From positions 181,556 to 245,555 of the forward strand of contig JADHYV010000034.1 in NCBI GenBank assembly GCA_027604705.1: a DNA stretch of 64,000 bases, in the 5' to 3' direction. Position 1 is the first letter of the stretch; each line of letters begins with the position of its first letter. The notes under the pieces were generated by a model, which saw nothing but the letters and a program-made list of their open reading frames with translations, was not told where the DNA came from and did not search any database. Shown in pieces: positions 38,144-46,615 of the stretch. This stretch comes from Allomyces arbusculus (lineage: Eukaryota > Blastocladiomycota > Blastocladiomycetes > Blastocladiales > Blastocladiaceae). Made by a program: the position numbers and the translations under genes.

Positions 38144-39640
38144 CGTCGCGTGGAAGGGGTGGCGGGCGGGTATGCGGCGGGGTGGCAGTCGCGGGCAGCG
38201 ACGGGGGTATCAACTATGGGTTCCACGAGAAGGTGATCAGTTCGCTCAGCGCAGGCGTCGTCCGGGCACACACACCCACAGCCCCGATTTTTTCATTTGC
38301 GCGTGCGCGGGCGCCCACACGCGCCCACCGCGCGCCTGCGCAAAAGCGCGCGGTGCCGTGATCGGCACGCGCGCAAATCCGTCCGGCCACGGCCGGCACC
38401 CCTGATCGGCGCGGCGATCAGAGCTCGACGACCGAAAAAAGCAAAAAGCAGAAGACGCGCACCTGGCCACTGGGCTGCACCATGCACGGCAGGCAGGCAG
38501 GCAGCGAGCAGCGTCGCCGGGCGCGACGGGACTCGGCCAGCGCGAGCACCTAAGGGGCGGCGCGACGCGACGCGAGGGAAAAGCGGATCAAGACGGGGTC
38601 AGCAAGTGAGAGAGCGACGCGGGGGCGGCGTGCGGGGGGGAGGGGCCGACGTGCAGCGGCAGGACGCGCAGCGGCAGTGGCGGCGCGCGACGGGACGACC
38701 AACCGGAGGGGTGGACGGCGGACGGACGGTGCGCCGCGGGCGGGGAAGGCGCGTGGCAGGGTGGGCCGCACGCGCGGCTGGCGGTTGGCGGGGACCAGCG
38801 GCGGGCCGTCTTCGCGGGCAGGCACGGGCACGGGCACGGGCGGGCCGCGAAGGGGGCGGCGGCCCGGGTGGGTGTGGCCGTGGCCGAGCCACGCGCGTGC
38901 GGTAGACACTCTCGCCGGGTCGGATCACCCCGAACCTGCCGGTCGCCGTCGTCGCCGCCGTCCGTCGCGCGTCGTCCGCCGTCGTCGCCCAGCTGCAGCA
39001 TCGCGTCGGATCGGGTACGCGGGCACGTACCCGTCGGTGGCGGGTGTCGCCGCGGGTCGGGTTGCGCACGGAGGTGCTGCAGCGGGGGGATGATCCGCGA
39101 GCGGGCGGCGCGTGCGCAGATTGGGTGTGCTGCACGCGCACTTGCACTTGGCGGTTGGTGCACTTGCACTTGGCGGTTGGTGCACTTGCCGTCACGCTCG
39201 ACCAGCGCGCGTTGTCGGCCGGTTCTGGACGGTGCAGTTCGGTCGTTTGCGTTGCGCCGGCCGCCGAATCGTGCAGGAGGAAGCAGTGGCCAAGAGGGCA
39301 GCCGGGCGGGCGCGCTCTCGACGACGAAGCAGGGGACGCCTCGCGGCTGCGCCCCAACCGCCATTTTGGGCCAAACACGCGCGCAGGCAGCGGACGCTTC
39401 TTCGAGAGCGTCATGTGAGTGCACCTGATGGCCCCCCGCTCCTCGCGCCGCCGTCTCCGCTGTCTCCCCGCTGCTCGCCGCCGCCGTCGCCAGGAAACGA
39501 CCACCCAACGGGCCGCGCTCGCACCGCCGACAAGTCGCACGACTGGCCGCATTTCCGCCCGCGCACCGTCTCCACCGCGCCGCCACCGCCCACCGCCCGC
39601 TGATCCGCCGACTCCACGACCGCAACCACCTTTGCGTCCA
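38144..39640. promoter_or_regulatory. Long divergent region, MADS and kinesin-like genes
   Basis: 1.5 kb, very GC-rich, open in several frames by composition but with no recognisable domain. It contains a 22-bp tandem repeat at 39138-39190 and a GGCA tetramer run near 38486-38502. It probably holds both promoters and long leaders. Confidence 0.45.
39138..39190. repeat. 22-bp tandem repeat, 2.4 units
   Basis: Unit GCACTTGCACTTGGCGGTTG plus GT, twice in full, then a partial third copy. It lies about 450 bases upstream of the kinesin-like ATG. Confidence 0.85.
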
Positions 39641-42600
39641 ATGGCCATCGACGGCCCGGCCGCTGCCCCGCCTGTGGGCGATACGGCCGTTCCCGCCGCT
39701 GCCGCTGCCGCTGCCGCCAATGACCACGTCAACGGGGATCATGCCGCGGCCGCCGACAGTGCCGCCAAACAGCTCGCCGCGCCCAACGGCAACGGCCACG
39801 CCGACGGCTCGCCCAATTCCGACGCCAATACCAGCGGCACCGTGACCAACCGCATCACTGCACTCGGCGCCATCGACTTTCTGCCCGTGCGCGTCGTGCT
39901 GCTCGTCGACCGCGCCCAGCACGACATCTATGAGGTCGATGCCACCAACCCCAAAGTCCTCATTCACAAGCCGCCGCGCGCGCGCGGGAACGGTGCGCTT
40001 CCACTGCCCGTTCATGTTTCCTGGGAACCGATAGCCGATGCTTATGGCAATTCCATTTCCAGAATCGGCCTTCAAGAAAATCTACATGGACCATATCTCC
40101 GTCCTCGACGTCGCGCGCGACACGCTGATCAAGCACTGCCAGCTCGAGGAGCAGCTGGCCATGCTGTTGCAGGGATTCAACGCGGCCATCTACACTGTTA
40201 ACACGCGCGACCCAGAGACGCATGTCAATGGCCTCCTGATCTTCGCACTGCGATTGCTCGACCGGCTCTTGGCCAGAGCGCCGCCGCTGCAGCTGTCCTA
40301 CGTGTACTTATCCTGTAGCTCAATGTGTATGGATCAGCTGGACGTAATAATCTCATCCACGCATGCACAACCAACTAGCTTCCTCGGCGTCACCGACACG
40401 CAGTGCATCCAGCTCGACACCGAGAAGCCGCTGCAACGTACGCCATTGCCCTTTCTCCACCAACCCTCCCCACCCACTCATCCGCTCCCATATCTAGTCC
40501 CGTTCCTCCTCGACCACCTCGACGACCTGTTTGAAGACGCCCCCTCTGCCACCTTCCTCATCGACAAACTCGAGGCCAAGCACGCTGTCCCTACCATGCT
40601 GCTCGTCCGGCTCGAGACGGCCGACGCCGCCGCGACCGACCCGATCGCATGCACACTCACGCTCGCTGACCTCGGATGGATGTACGACCCGCCCAACACC
40701 TCGGCGTGCGTGCCGATGCTGCCCAACTCGCTCGCCAAATTGCAGACCATGGTCACGGCCCTCGCGCAACGGCCGATTGGCGCGCGGATCGAGACGGGCG
40801 AGAGTTACTTGACGGCGTTAGCGGCGGGTACGCGACCTCCTTGATCCCTCCCCCCCCCCCCCCCTTCTTCGGACGATCGACTGACCCGACTTCACGGATA
40901 GCGCACCTGAACGGCAATTGCCGCACACAATGGCTTCTGCGCGCCGATCTGGCCCACCCGGCCGTCGCGCCCGTCCTACAACTCGGCGCGTCGTTACGGC
41001 TCATCAAGACCGCCGTCTCGCCACCGCCACGTGCCGCCGTCGCGCGCCGCCGTGTCGAGGAACTCGAGGCCGCTCTCGCGCGTGCCGCAGACCGGCACGC
41101 GCAGGCCGATGCGGACCGCGCTGCGCTCGAAGCGAAAGTGACCGCCGGGATTGAGTACGTGCACCGGCTCAATGCGACGGCCGAGTACTGGAAGGCCGCC
41201 GAGGAAGCCGCACGGATTCGGGCCGCCGAGCAGGGGGCGAACGCGCGCGAGTTGCGGCTCGCGTTGGCCGCCGCGCGCAGGGAGGTCGTGAGTGAGCAGG
41301 TCGCGCGTAAATCGTGCGAGATGGAAATCGCGCGCCTTCGGCGTCAAGTCGCGCGGCTCGAAGAGATGCGGCGGGACGCCGAGCACGATCGGGCCACGAC
41401 CGATGTCGCCACGCGCATCTTGACCAACGAAGCTTCCTGTCTGCGGACGGCCGTCGACAATGCCGTCTCGGACGCGCGGTTTGCGAAACGGCACGCGGCG
41501 GATCTCCTGGCCGTGTTGGATACGGTCACGGAGGAACGCGACGCGGCGGTCGGCAAGGCGACTCAGCTGGCGCAAGTCGCGCAGCGGTACCGCGGCAAGG
41601 CGCGCCGCGCGAACGAGACGATTGACGAACTTGCGGCCACGGTGACGGATTTCGAGGCGGCCGTGACGAAGTTGCAAGCGGATTTTGAGAAGGAACATGC
41701 CGCGCGGACATTGGCCGAGTCGGACCGCGATACGGCGCTCGCTGAGTGCATCAAGCTCGCGCGCGATTTAATGAATGCCGAACGCGCGACCAACGCGGCG
41801 CGAGCCGAGGCCGAGGCCGCTCGTGCCGCGGCCGCGGAGGGCGGGCTTGATCCGGAGACCGAGGCCGCCTACGTGGCTCTTGGTGAGCGCGCAGTGGAAG
41901 TGCAGGCTGCGCTCGAGGCGGAACAGAAGCAGGTGGCGGACTTGGCGGCCGCGTTGGAGGAGGCCGCCGCGCAGAATGCCGAGGTCGAGGCGCGCGCAAA
42001 GGAGGAGGTGGAAAAGGAGAAGGCGCGGCGCGAACAGGCTGAGAAGGAACTCGAGCGCGCAAATGCGCAGGTGCATATCCTCGCGGTCGCGAGGGACGAT
42101 CTGCACGCCAAGGTCGAACGGCTCGAGCACCAGCTGGAGCGCCAAGTCCTGCGCGCCGACGCTGCGGTCGCCGGGGAACAAGTGCGTGCGGCTGCGATCG
42201 AGCAGGAGCGCGCGGCCGTCGAGGCCGCGGCCGAGGCGCGCGACGCGACCGTGCATGCGCGCGCGGAACTCGCCCGCGAACTGGACGAGGTGCGGCTCGC
42301 TGCCGCGCGGCGCGAGACGGAGCTGGTGCAGGAGATGGAGACGATGCAGGCACAGGTGCGGTCGCGCGCCCTCGAGCTCGAAACGGTAAGGCAGGACCGC
42401 GATCGGCAGGCGCGGCGCGCGACAGACTTGGCCGCGGTCGCGGAAACCGCTGAGGCGGCGGCACGTGCCGCGCTCGACCAGGTGCGCGACCTCGAGCGGC
42501 AGGTCGCGGACGCGACCGCCGCCGTGCGGGCGGCTGAACGTGTGGCCGCGGCTGCACAGAGCGACCTCGATGCCGAGCGCCGTCGCGCGGCGGCGGCGGC

Positions 42601-44805
42601 CGTCGAGCTCGAGAATGTGGCCGCACAGTGCGCGGCAGTGACCGCCGACCGCGACGCGCTCGTGGATGCCGTCGCCCAAATTCAGGACAAGTATGTGCAG
42701 CAGTGCGCATTGACTCGTGCCGCGCACGAGGAGGTGCGGGCCGCACGTGCTCGGGCCCGCGACGAGCAACTTGAACTGCGCGCCGAGTTGCAAACGACGC
42801 AGACGGACCTCGCGACGGTGCGTGCGCAGCTCGAGGATGCTGAGGCACAGGTCGCCGCGGCCGAGGCGATTCCTTCCGTTCGGCCCATGGCTGCCGTCGT
42901 GGACCACGCGCACACGCGCGAATTGACCCGCGCGCGCACGCTCTTGCAGGAACGCACTGCGGCACTGGACGCAGCCCGGGCGGCGCTCGCGACGGCTGAA
43001 GCTGATCGGGACGCGGCGCGCGACGACCTTGTCCAGGTCGAGAACGAGCGCGATGCTCTCCGCGGGGAACTGACCCGTGCGCGCGTGACTGCCGACCAAG
43101 CTCGGCGCAGTGCTGCGGCCACGGCCGATCGCGCACGGCGTGAACTCGACCGGGTGCGGGCCGACCTGGCCGCGGCCATGCGCGAGCGCGACGACTTGCA
43201 AGTCTCGTTAAATACCGCGAATGCCGCGGCCGCAGACGCGGCCGCCGCCCAGGCCGAAAGTGCGCGGTTGCGTCGCGTGCAGTCCGATTTGGAGGCGCGG
43301 CTGCGCTGGCTGGAAAAAGACTTGGAGGTCAAGGAGACGGAAATTGCGAGGCTGCACGAGGAAGCGACGGCGGCGGCGGCGGCGGCGGCCGTGCCGGGTG
43401 CGGGGGTCGACGAGCAAGTTCTTGCGCGCACGCGCGCGGATCTCGCACAGCGTGCGGCGGATTTGCGGGTCGCCGAGGCCGACCGGCGCCGGCTGCAGTT
43501 GGAGATTGACGAGCGCAATCGGCAAGTCGAGGATTTGGCCGCGCACGTACAAGTACTGGAACAGGAGTTGCAGCGGACGGCCGCGCAGCGCGCGCCGATT
43601 TCCAAGCCGTCGCTCGCGCGAATGCAGAACACGTTGCTCGATACGACGCGCGAAAACCGGATGCTCAAGGACCAGAACGCCGAGTTGGCACAGCGTGCAG
43701 AGTTGGCTGCTGCGGCCGCAGCCGCGGCGGCGGTGACAGCTCCGGTGGCGGCGTCGGACGAGATGGATGTGGTGGCGATGCTGCCGCCCGCGGCGGTGCC
43801 CGCGCGCGCGAGGGGCCGTGCAGCGAAGCGGCCGCTGGTCCTGGACGATGCGACCGACGAGGACGCGGTGGGTGATGCGGCGGGTCCCACGTCCCCGGCG
43901 CTCAACAAGCGCGCGGCGCGCGGCAAGAATGCGACGCGGCCGGCGTCGGCCCCGTCGCCGGCACGGCTCGTACTCGATAGTGTCGTGATCGAGCCGATGC
44001 GCAGGACGCCGACGCCGCCGGTGGTCCCACCCCCAGCGCCCAGGCGTGCGCGAGCTGCGGCGCGTCCGGCGGTTGTCGAGAGCGAGACGGACGACGAGGA
44101 GGTCGACGACAAGGACGAGGAGGAGGCGGTTGTGGACGTGGTCGATACCGAGTCACACGAAAAGGACGCGGACGAGGACGAGGACGAGAACCCACCACCG
44201 CCGCCGCCGGCACCTCCGGCACGGGGTGGGCGAAAGCGTGGCGGTGCTGGGGCGACCAAGGCTGCCCCCGCCGCCAAGGGCAGGAAGGGTACGGCCGCAT
44301 CCAAGGCGGCCGCAGCCGCGTCGGAGTCCGCTGCCAGCGACGCCGACGCTCCCACTGAACCCGTCGCCAAGCCGGCGCGCAAGCCGCGCGGCAAGGGCAA
44401 GGCCAAGGCCACCGTTGCTGCTGCTGCCGCCGCCGACAACGCCGAGCAACCGGCCCCCGCAGCTTCGGCTCCGCTGCCACCATCGACCCCACCACCATTG
44501 AGCCAGCCGGGCGCAGGCGTGTTTGCTAGCCCGGACCTGAGCATGACGTCGACAGCGTCGCGGCCCGGGACGGTGAAGCGGCGGAGGTTGAACGCGCCAG
44601 CGGCGCGACCGATTCAAGTCGTCTCTACGCCCGCAAAAGTCACGTCGGATCGCGAGGTACGTCCAATGCGGCGGAGGGTGTGAGAGGGATGGATGGGATG
44701 GGGTGGAGAGTGGACTGACGATGACTGATGAATGTGGTCGTTTAGAGCAAGCTACGCAATACGCTGCAATTTTTGACGGCGGAACCGGTGGCGGGCGCGC
44801 CGTAG
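39641..44805 (+). CDS. Kinesin-like protein with degenerate motor and very long coiled coil
   Basis: Model join(39641..39992,40063..40437,40498..40827,40902..44656,44746..44805), 1,623 aa; every junction keeps frame. An extra 54-nt in-frame intron (GTGTAT...TAG, near 40329-40382) is possible. Residues 80-390 follow the kinesin motor order: VRVVLLVDR, FKKIYMDHISVLDVARDTLI, LLQGFNAAIYTVN, LQLSYVYL, ATFLIDKLEAKHA (SSRSH position), LTLADLG (DLAGSE position, 298-302), NSLAKLQTMVTALA (NKSLSALG helix), and HLNGNCRTQWLL. The P-loop GxxxxGK(S/T) is absent: after GFNAAIYTVNT (Gly155) comes RDPETHV. Switch I and II residues are also lost, so ATP hydrolysis is unlikely. Residues about 395-1300 are an Ala/Glu/Arg coiled coil; the tail is basic/acidic with RGKGKAKA-type clusters. 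Confidence 0.8.
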
Positions 44806-45428
44806 GGCGCCAAGAAACGTGCACGAGGAAGGATCACGGTCGTGTTTTGGTTTGTGGTTGATCTTTTTTGGGCAGACGGCCAAGTGTGAGTTGACAGCAG
44901 TATCCGTTTGCTGTTCCTTTGCGTGCTCCAGGGCAGGTTGGTTTATTTATTCGCTTGCTTGGGTCGAGTTGAACAACGCACTGTAGATTTTCCATTTTGC
45001 TCGCACCCCTTGCCAGCAAAGATCATGCTGGTCAGAGTCGCCCGGGCCAGCGGAGTAGAGTACCCGCGATAGAACAACAGGACAACAACAGCTCCATGAC
45101 CCGCAGCGCACAAGACCAGTCCCTCCAGCCGGGTGGAGAGATCGCACCCCGACGTCGCGCTAACTTGTCATATCGCGCGTTCATGCGACGCGTGCAGCAG
45201 GTCGTAATGCGCGGCCGGGTGGTCGTGGTGACCTGACGGAGTTTGGGCCAAGTCAGAGACTGACGCAAACGCGTGCCACCAGTGACGCCGTCATCTTCGA
45301 TCACAAGTGATGACACTCCGCGCCTGTCTCCACGAGCTGATCTCTGCGGGTATGCTCCTTGCTGCTCGCGTGCCCCATTGCCCTTTTCGACCAACTACTC
45401 CGTCATTGTATCAACTCGCTGCACACCA
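44806..45428. other. Intergenic before MED18
   Basis: Kinesin-like 3' end followed by the MED18 promoter; moderate GC. No structured RNA or repeat is seen. Confidence 0.5.
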
Positions 45429-46615
45429 ATGATCCCACCAGCCCTCGCCTCGCGCGCCGTCGCGGCGCCGCACGACACGACCATGCAACTCTTACTCTAT
45501 GGCGCGGTCCCCGACGCGATGCTCGACAAGTTGCTCGAGCGGCTCGCTGCCATTTTCCCCGACTCGCGACGACCCTATACGCCCAACGACGAGGACTCGG
45601 GCGCGGGTGTGGGGGACGACGACGACCACCTTGACGCGATCCGACGCGATACGGCCATGATGGTGGCCGAGTACGTGTTTGTGCCCGCAGGTGCGGTCCA
45701 GACTAGTCTTCGGTTATCCGACATGAACGGGATGGTTGCTGATGCGGGTGGGTCGGGTGTAAGTGGAGACGCCGCTCGGGCCGGCACGGTCCAACGACGT
45801 GGTCCTGCGGTTGACGGCGCCGTTACCGTCGCTGCACTTGGACGACAAGGAGACCGTCTGGTGCGTGCTTTTTCCTAACTTGCGACCTGGATGCAGCACA
45901 CAACCTAATTTCGAAATGCGCGTAGGTCCATTGCGCACACGGGCCGACCCGAAGCCCCGTCCCCTGCGTGGCGCACAACACGGCGTGCCGTGCATGCTGT
46001 GGTGCTTGACGGAACAGCTGACCAGCCACGGCCGTCGTTTGAGCAGAGCGTGCAGTTCTTGCGCGCGTTGGGGTACCGGTACGCGTTGCTCCCGTACGCG
46101 CTCCACCTGGTCACGCGCGCGTGCTGACCAGGCGGTCGGTTGTGCAGGCCTTACTTCCAGTTCGTCAAGAAAGGATTTGCGTTCCACGCACCGGGGATCG
46201 CGACGGTGCTCGTGTACCAGACGTACAATGTACGTGCCGACCTTCCGCACCCTTTCGCGTTGTCTTCGTGTCGCTCATTTGAATTCTATCGTTGCAACAG
46301 CTGCCCGACCCGGACCCATCACTGCGCCGCCTCAACCTGCACGGCGTCCCACCCGTCGAGGCCAACCACGACGTCTGGATTGTGGAAGTGGCCAGCGTCC
46401 CGCCACCCATTCCGACGACGACGCCCGAAATGCTCGATGCACTGGAGCGCGAAATGGTGGCGATTGCCGTGGCGCTGCGCGGGTGCGTTGGCCACTTGCT
46501 GTGGGAGGGAAGGACAGAGGGGAGGGAACTGACGTGCGGAGAGTGTAGGCTCGTCGACGTGCGCATCATGGACCCGGTTCTGTTGCGCGACCAAGTGCCG
46601 TACGTGGTGCGATAA
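45429..46615 (+). CDS. MED18: Mediator head subunit 18 (MED18/Srb5)
   Basis: Model join(45429..45690,45764..45860,45926..46078,46148..46229,46301..46482,46549..46615), 280 aa, with five introns of 65-73 nt. The pieces fall in family order: MQLLLYGAVPDAMLDKLLER (first beta strand and helix of the head fold), DVVLRL, ETVWSIAHTGRPE (the W-x-L-R-x-x-G-x-P-E motif), VQFLRALGYRPYFQFVKKGF, FHAPGIATVLVYQTY, DVWIVEVASVPPP, and a C-terminal helix after LDALEREM. Med18 with Med20 forms the movable jaw of the Mediator head that contacts RNA polymerase II. A later in-frame ATG at 45483 (MQLLLY) could be the true start. Confidence 0.88.

Follow-up and report, generated by a model that had tools for sequence, protein, structure and literature searches.

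Can a protein that has lost the P-loop and both switch motifs of a kinesin still be a kinesin by descent, and if so, what would it do in the cell? This question is raised by a gene of Allomyces arbusculus (39641–44805, + strand) in a window of 64,000 nucleotides (nt), i.e. the whole stretch of DNA analysed here, taken from contig JADHYV010000034.1 (positions 181,556 to 245,555 of the forward strand). The gene probably encodes a pseudo-motor, in which an N-terminal kinesin head with no site for adenosine triphosphate (ATP) leads into a very long rod that ends in a low-complexity tail. Its P-loop and both switch motifs are absent, the rod is predicted to be helical, and the frame is open over four exons. 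The front end appears, from profile alignments of the second half of the head, to descend from a kinesin motor. All coordinates given below are window positions on the + strand, and residue numbers refer to the spliced product of 1643 amino acids.

The head lies beyond the reach of the standard models. With residues 1–441 as query, no kinesin was found in Pfam at E ≤ 10, PF00225 staying below its curated cut-off, and two sub-threshold families were returned, Caf4 (E 0.18) and TAFH (E 0.37). The head gave no match in NCBIfam or among PDB sequences, and a six-frame search of the genome (25.9 Mb, 197 contigs) with PF00225 produced 74 matches, none of which fell on the contig carrying the gene (C34). 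The likeness emerged against a profile of kinesins from the same genome, for which 29 regions were fetched and 28 fragments were long enough (L038 was dropped; L037, from a virus-like contig, is included). With all filters off, hmmsearch aligned residues 339–384 with these kinesins (3.5 bits, E 0.0017). Local alignment of residues 65–424 to the profile by hhalign scored 38.3 (P 8e-5; 26% identity over 103 columns, residues 279–386), a value reached by none of 300 shuffled sequences (maximum 24.9), while the reversed profile gave 11.3. The global alignment scored 34.8 (252 columns, 22% identity, residues 122–410), and again no shuffle, out of 200, came near it (maximum 14.5; reversed profile 2.8, reversed query 2.6).

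Eight stretches of the protein's own rod and tail scored 13.8 or less locally against the kinesin profile. Among 57 control frames the top two scored 38.2 and 27.5, and the next 19.0. Because the high pair lie inside kinesin loci L023 and L024 and match just the ends of the profile (21 and 23 columns), they are tentatively taken to be missed kinesin exons. When each of six kinesin subgroups was left out in turn the match persisted (P 2.6e-5 to 3.2e-4); profiles of single subgroups alone gave P 0.0024 to 0.15. The order of kinesin elements reported for residues 80–390 in a preliminary description of this DNA is upheld from switch I to helix 5.

The positions at which the motor motifs would be expected are as follows, with the names of strands, helices and loops taken from kinesin structures:

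40173–40232, + strand: P-loop position, residues 155–174, GFNAAIYTVNTRDPETHVNG; the forward frames are without a P-loop motif.
40545–40613, + strand: switch I position, residues 279–301, SATFLIDKLEAKHAVPTMLLVRL, placed by the hhalign alignment.
40653–40685, + strand: switch II position, residues 315–325, TLTLADLGWMY for the DLAGSE context, placed by the hhalign alignment.
40725–40827, + strand: helix 4, loop 12 and helix 5 position, residues 339–373, placed by hmmsearch and hhalign.

The first of these strings occupies the site of the P-loop in the organism's own kinesins (e.g. L023), and the string by which the preliminary description had marked the P-loop site, GFNAAIYTVNTRDPETHV, begins at residue 155. 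No [AG]x4GK[ST] was found in the forward frames of 39000–45500, where the only other motif match is an SSRSS at 40141 in an unused frame. GFNAAIY and THVNG are separated by eight codons (24 nt), and with so short a gap and no motif in the forward frames a hidden or split P-loop exon does not fit. The loss of the P-loop described earlier is therefore real in this assembly, and the missed exon that had been named as its possible refutation does not fit the assembly. The other two losses were also correctly described, with LEAKH at 287–291 in place of SSRSH, and LADLG at residue 318, such that DLAGSE reads DLGWMY; indeed, every motif quoted at that stage is present in the translation. What remains of the kinesin is the helix 4 string NSLAKLQTMVTALA at residue 339 and HLNGNCRT (the GNCRT turn) at 374, and NSLAKLQ and GNCRT stand at kinesin spacing. 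In loop 12, (Y/F)RxSK (kinesin-1 type) reads TGESY, with R replaced by G and K by Y; in kinesins this R and K contact tubulin.

Among the 28 kinesin fragments of the same genome, N..SSR[ST]H is present in all 28, switch II in 27, an unspliced P-loop in 24, and (Y/F)RxSK in 19. Two of these loci, L029 and L026, have an intron that divides the P-loop codons at GQTGxG|KT, which is why six-frame searches show them without a P-loop. Two others, L018 and L036, have no P-loop in their joined fragments, and an intron or very short exon is likely there.

The gene model was spliced in silico, its three GT...AG introns (70, 74 and 89 nt) being placed by reading frame and splice signals. The joined exons form a single frame of 1643 codons that stops at 44805, in agreement with the span first proposed for the gene (39641–44805).

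39641–39992, + strand: exon 1, start codon and Ala-rich N-terminus, residues 1–117 and the first base of codon 118.
39993–40062, + strand: putative intron 1, 70 nt, GTGCGC...TTTCCAG, joining frame 2 to frame 3.
40063–40827, + strand: exon 2, with the greater part of the degenerate head (residues 118–373); its first and last codons are split.
40828–40901, + strand: putative intron 2, 74 nt, joining frame 3 to frame 2.
40902–44656, + strand: exon 3, a single open frame with the end of the head (HLNGNCRT ... SLRLIKTAV, residues 374 to about 412), the rod and most of the tail.
44657–44745, + strand: putative intron 3, 89 nt, GTACGT...TTTAG.
44746–44805, + strand: exon 4, the last 19 residues, SKLRNTLQFLTAEPVAGAP, and the stop codon.

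Codon use, modelled on five other kinesin loci of the genome, favours the frame that is used in each of the first three exons. Exon 1 scored 0.28 in the frame used, against −0.21 and −0.67 for the two alternative forward frames; exon 2 scored 0.23 (alternatives −0.75 and −0.62), and exon 3 scored 0.38, its other two forward frames being negative. A further intron, considered at 40438–40498, was rejected, as it would put the rest of the head out of frame; the content of guanine plus cytosine (G+C) by codon position is less regular there. Intron 2 contains a run of 15 C (40850–40864), which is a likely sequencing-error spot, though intronic.

The head passes directly into the rod within exon 3, a layout like that of N-terminal-motor kinesins, where the helical rod follows the head at once. 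The remainder of the protein consists of two parts:

41027–43684, + strand: predicted helical rod, residues 415–1300, from an AlphaFold2 model of the single sequence.
43685–44656, + strand: tail, Ala/Pro-rich with an acidic block and basic patches, recognised by composition.

The AlphaFold2 model of the rod has seven long helices, with 846 of its 886 residues helical and a mean predicted local distance difference test score (pLDDT) of 67.7. Of the 13 windows taken along the rod, six show a periodicity of 3.5 residues (P ≤ 0.05), as does one window of the head (211–294). The rod is 26% alanine, and parts of it are without this period. The model fits a long coiled coil, and the roughly 900 residues of coiled coil described earlier agree with it in length and helicity; the period of 3.5 does not run throughout. 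A match of exon 3 to DUF4200 (E 0.014; 16.1 bits, below the cut-off of 29.7) was taken as coiled-coil noise. The final 343 residues are low-complexity and Ala/Pro-rich, with a net charge of +1, and KRRRLNA at residue 1598 is the lone motif of the tail that resembles a nuclear signal.

A head that has drifted below the reach of Pfam, yet belongs to a protein with 1643 open codons, is most simply explained by selection for non-motor work. Such a head would neither bind nor hydrolyse ATP, nor walk, and the protein would dimerise through its rod, either as a homodimer or by pairing with a catalytic kinesin. As the tubulin-facing loop is also degenerate, a docking role on a long dimeric rod is favoured: the head would dock or anchor the protein, which would itself be a scaffold, spacer or regulator that neither moves nor depends on ATP. 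The loss of the loop 12 basic pair, together with the nuclear-signal-like motif of the tail, makes it most likely, in our view, that the head binds a protein partner and does not use the usual face to bind microtubules, and that the site of action is the nucleus or the spindle; both are guesses. Taken further, a lineage of flagellated early-branching fungi may have turned a kinesin into a structural protein of the nucleus or spindle, with an N-terminal head that has lost ATP and the usual microtubule contact and a rod that would exceed 100 nm; selection would have kept this protein while its sequence drifted past recognition. This last proposal is tentative and, on balance, doubtful.

Several observations weigh against a selected pseudo-motor of kinesin descent. 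The P-loop half of the head (residues 110–275) taken alone scored 21.8, which four of 200 shuffles equalled, its alignment being correctly placed. A small profile of five sequences detected nothing like the first kinesin strand in residues 71–145, and the likeness of residues 80–117 to that strand is by eye only, so that the start of the kinesin core at residue 80, as initially described, is unsupported. Collinear similarity across the motor core is accordingly strong at 279–386, weak at 110–275 and absent at 71–145, and the case for ancestry rests mainly on the section from switch I to helix 5. Exon 2 alone, modelled by AlphaFold2 as a single sequence without relatives, gave a pLDDT of 33.7. 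The exact R/K motif of loop 12 is missing also from nine of the 28 kinesin fragments of the genome, so its loss alone is no proof of lost microtubule binding. The net charge of the head, −7, equals the lowest among those fragments and says little, and the tail, as noted, is barely charged. At the end of the head in exon 3 (40904–41026) codon use does not settle the reading frame, since one reverse frame (0.126) outscores the frame used (0.078). The DNA is G+C-rich, and chance-like open frames of up to 620 amino acids occur on the opposite strand of the same region, which makes the open frame by itself weak evidence. Finally, the gene is known from one genome, where its putative introns were placed by frame and splice signals.

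The rival that survives best is a partner subunit of the Vik1/Cik1 type, in which the rod would pair the protein with a catalytic kinesin and the dead head would be that kinesin's foothold on the microtubule. In excerpts of the papers on these yeast partners of the kinesin-14 Kar3, Vik1 is described as having a C-terminal kinesin-like fold without an ATP site that offers its kinesin partner a foothold (PMC3544905), and the dead head of Cik1 as needed for processive movement of Kar3, again as a foothold for the catalytic partner (PMC4338441). The combination is the same here, a coiled coil attached to a kinesin-type head that lacks an ATP site, and the genome has a candidate partner in L013, a Kar3-like kinesin-14 motor (Kar3 and KIFC1 are its best matches in the PDB), as well as many further kinesin matches. 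However, the head of the Allomyces protein is N-terminal, not C-terminal as in Vik1, its rod is very long, and its loop 12 is degenerate, with the basic pair for tubulin contact lost. No partner whose rod matches in length was found, no search aimed at one having been made. We regard such a partner as rather unlikely.

That the gene is a pseudogene, or has died recently, is improbable. All of the catalytic motifs are gone, and the gene comes from a single genome in which no second copy was found with residues 65–423 or with residues 1032–1643 (the latter gave two weak matches, both to the low-complexity tail, with E 5.9e-4 and 0.0049; 424–1031 were not searched). Against this, 1643 codons are open over four exons, with in-frame codon bias in the large ones, and the lack of stops and frameshifts after so much divergence suggests that selection acts on the protein. 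It is similarly improbable that the likeness to a kinesin arose by chance, in a coiled-coil protein whose N-terminal domain is of other origin. The silence of Pfam, NCBIfam and PDB, the poor prediction for exon 2, the weak P-loop half and the missing first strand would all suit chance, but the profile scores stand far above all shuffles and reversed decoys, with elements in the right order and NSLAKLQ and GNCRT correctly spaced. It is very improbable that the motor works with an atypical nucleotide site or that the assembly is wrong at the P-loop, for although the sequence comes from a single assembly, no forward frame contains P-loop codons.

Pseudo-motor kinesins are already a known kind, and the Allomyces protein can be compared with several besides Vik1 and Cik1. 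Costal-2, a relative of kinesin-4, is a pseudo-motor turned Hedgehog scaffold, which is the point of likeness; descent from kinesin-4 is without support for the present gene (subgroup scores are given below). KIF26B, VAB-8 and Smy1 have divergent heads, and these, together with that of KIF26A, should be recognised by standard kinesin models, whereas the head described here was missed by the Pfam kinesin model. The resemblance to KIF26A lies in a divergent head on a non-motor kinesin. In the available part of one paper, the divergent motor domain of KIF26A is said to bind microtubules without ATP hydrolysis, the protein being a non-motor kinesin or regulator, and KIF26A/KIF26B, VAB-8 and Smy1 are grouped as kinesin-11 (PMC10585591); an excerpt of another places Smy1 in kinesin-1 (PMC5076506). 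The latter also names pseudoKinesin-21, an orphan kinesin group from fungal taxa only, in a one-sentence description that does not state loss of the ATP site. According to part of a survey of basidiomycete kinesins, the motor domains of the ten kinesins of S. commune keep P-loop, switches and microtubule regions (PMC8950801).

In a tree of the genome's own kinesins the head sits on a branch of length 10, so the gene may have run away from any of the kinesin classes, and the separate, undescribed type proposed for it at first is not established. The pairwise scores show no pattern (L024, L034, L012, L019 and L015 are top by z or score), and subgroup profiles do not separate, with 29.0 for the kinesin-4-like subgroup and 29.4 for the mixed remainder. 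A kinesin-4-like descent, which short shared strings had led us to suspect, was not upheld by these scores, and the tails of the three kinesin-4-like paralogs are, by eye, unlike that of the gene. These three (L021, L022 and L031), which we take to be kinesin-4-like by their motifs, are closely related to each other, have open frames of 1083–1560 amino acids and represent an expansion within the genome. The best PDB matches of L024 are KIF9, a family that fits a flagellated organism.

One kinesin of the assembly lies in a different setting. Contig C22 (333,850 bp; L037, L046 and L047) has a G+C content of 48–50% over about 25 kb sampled, compared with 64% in the window, two matches to giant-virus capsids (93719–94246, E 6e-50; 311851–312318, E 6e-25), and a long intronless frame with a divergent kinesin motor that has a P-loop, SSRTH and DLAGHE. 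Judged by these features, it is a giant-virus contig, free or inserted, that carries a kinesin. A six-sequence kinesin alignment gave 50 pattern matches and no confirmed relatives in a viral collection, and the head of the Allomyces gene as query gave two pattern matches and no confirmed relatives in viral contigs. In the portion available, a paper on giant viruses uses the word kinesin 18 times (PMC8407384).

In the parts of the open-access literature consulted, no description was found of an N-terminal head so decayed on so long a rod. If orthologs share its losses, the gene would represent an independent conversion of a kinesin to a non-motor protein, one in which the dead head is N-terminal and the loop that faces tubulin is lost as well. 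In that case it would also show that such proteins can escape Pfam-based kinesin inventories, so that kinesin counts may miss them; genome-specific kinesin profiles offer a simple way to find further pseudo-motors.

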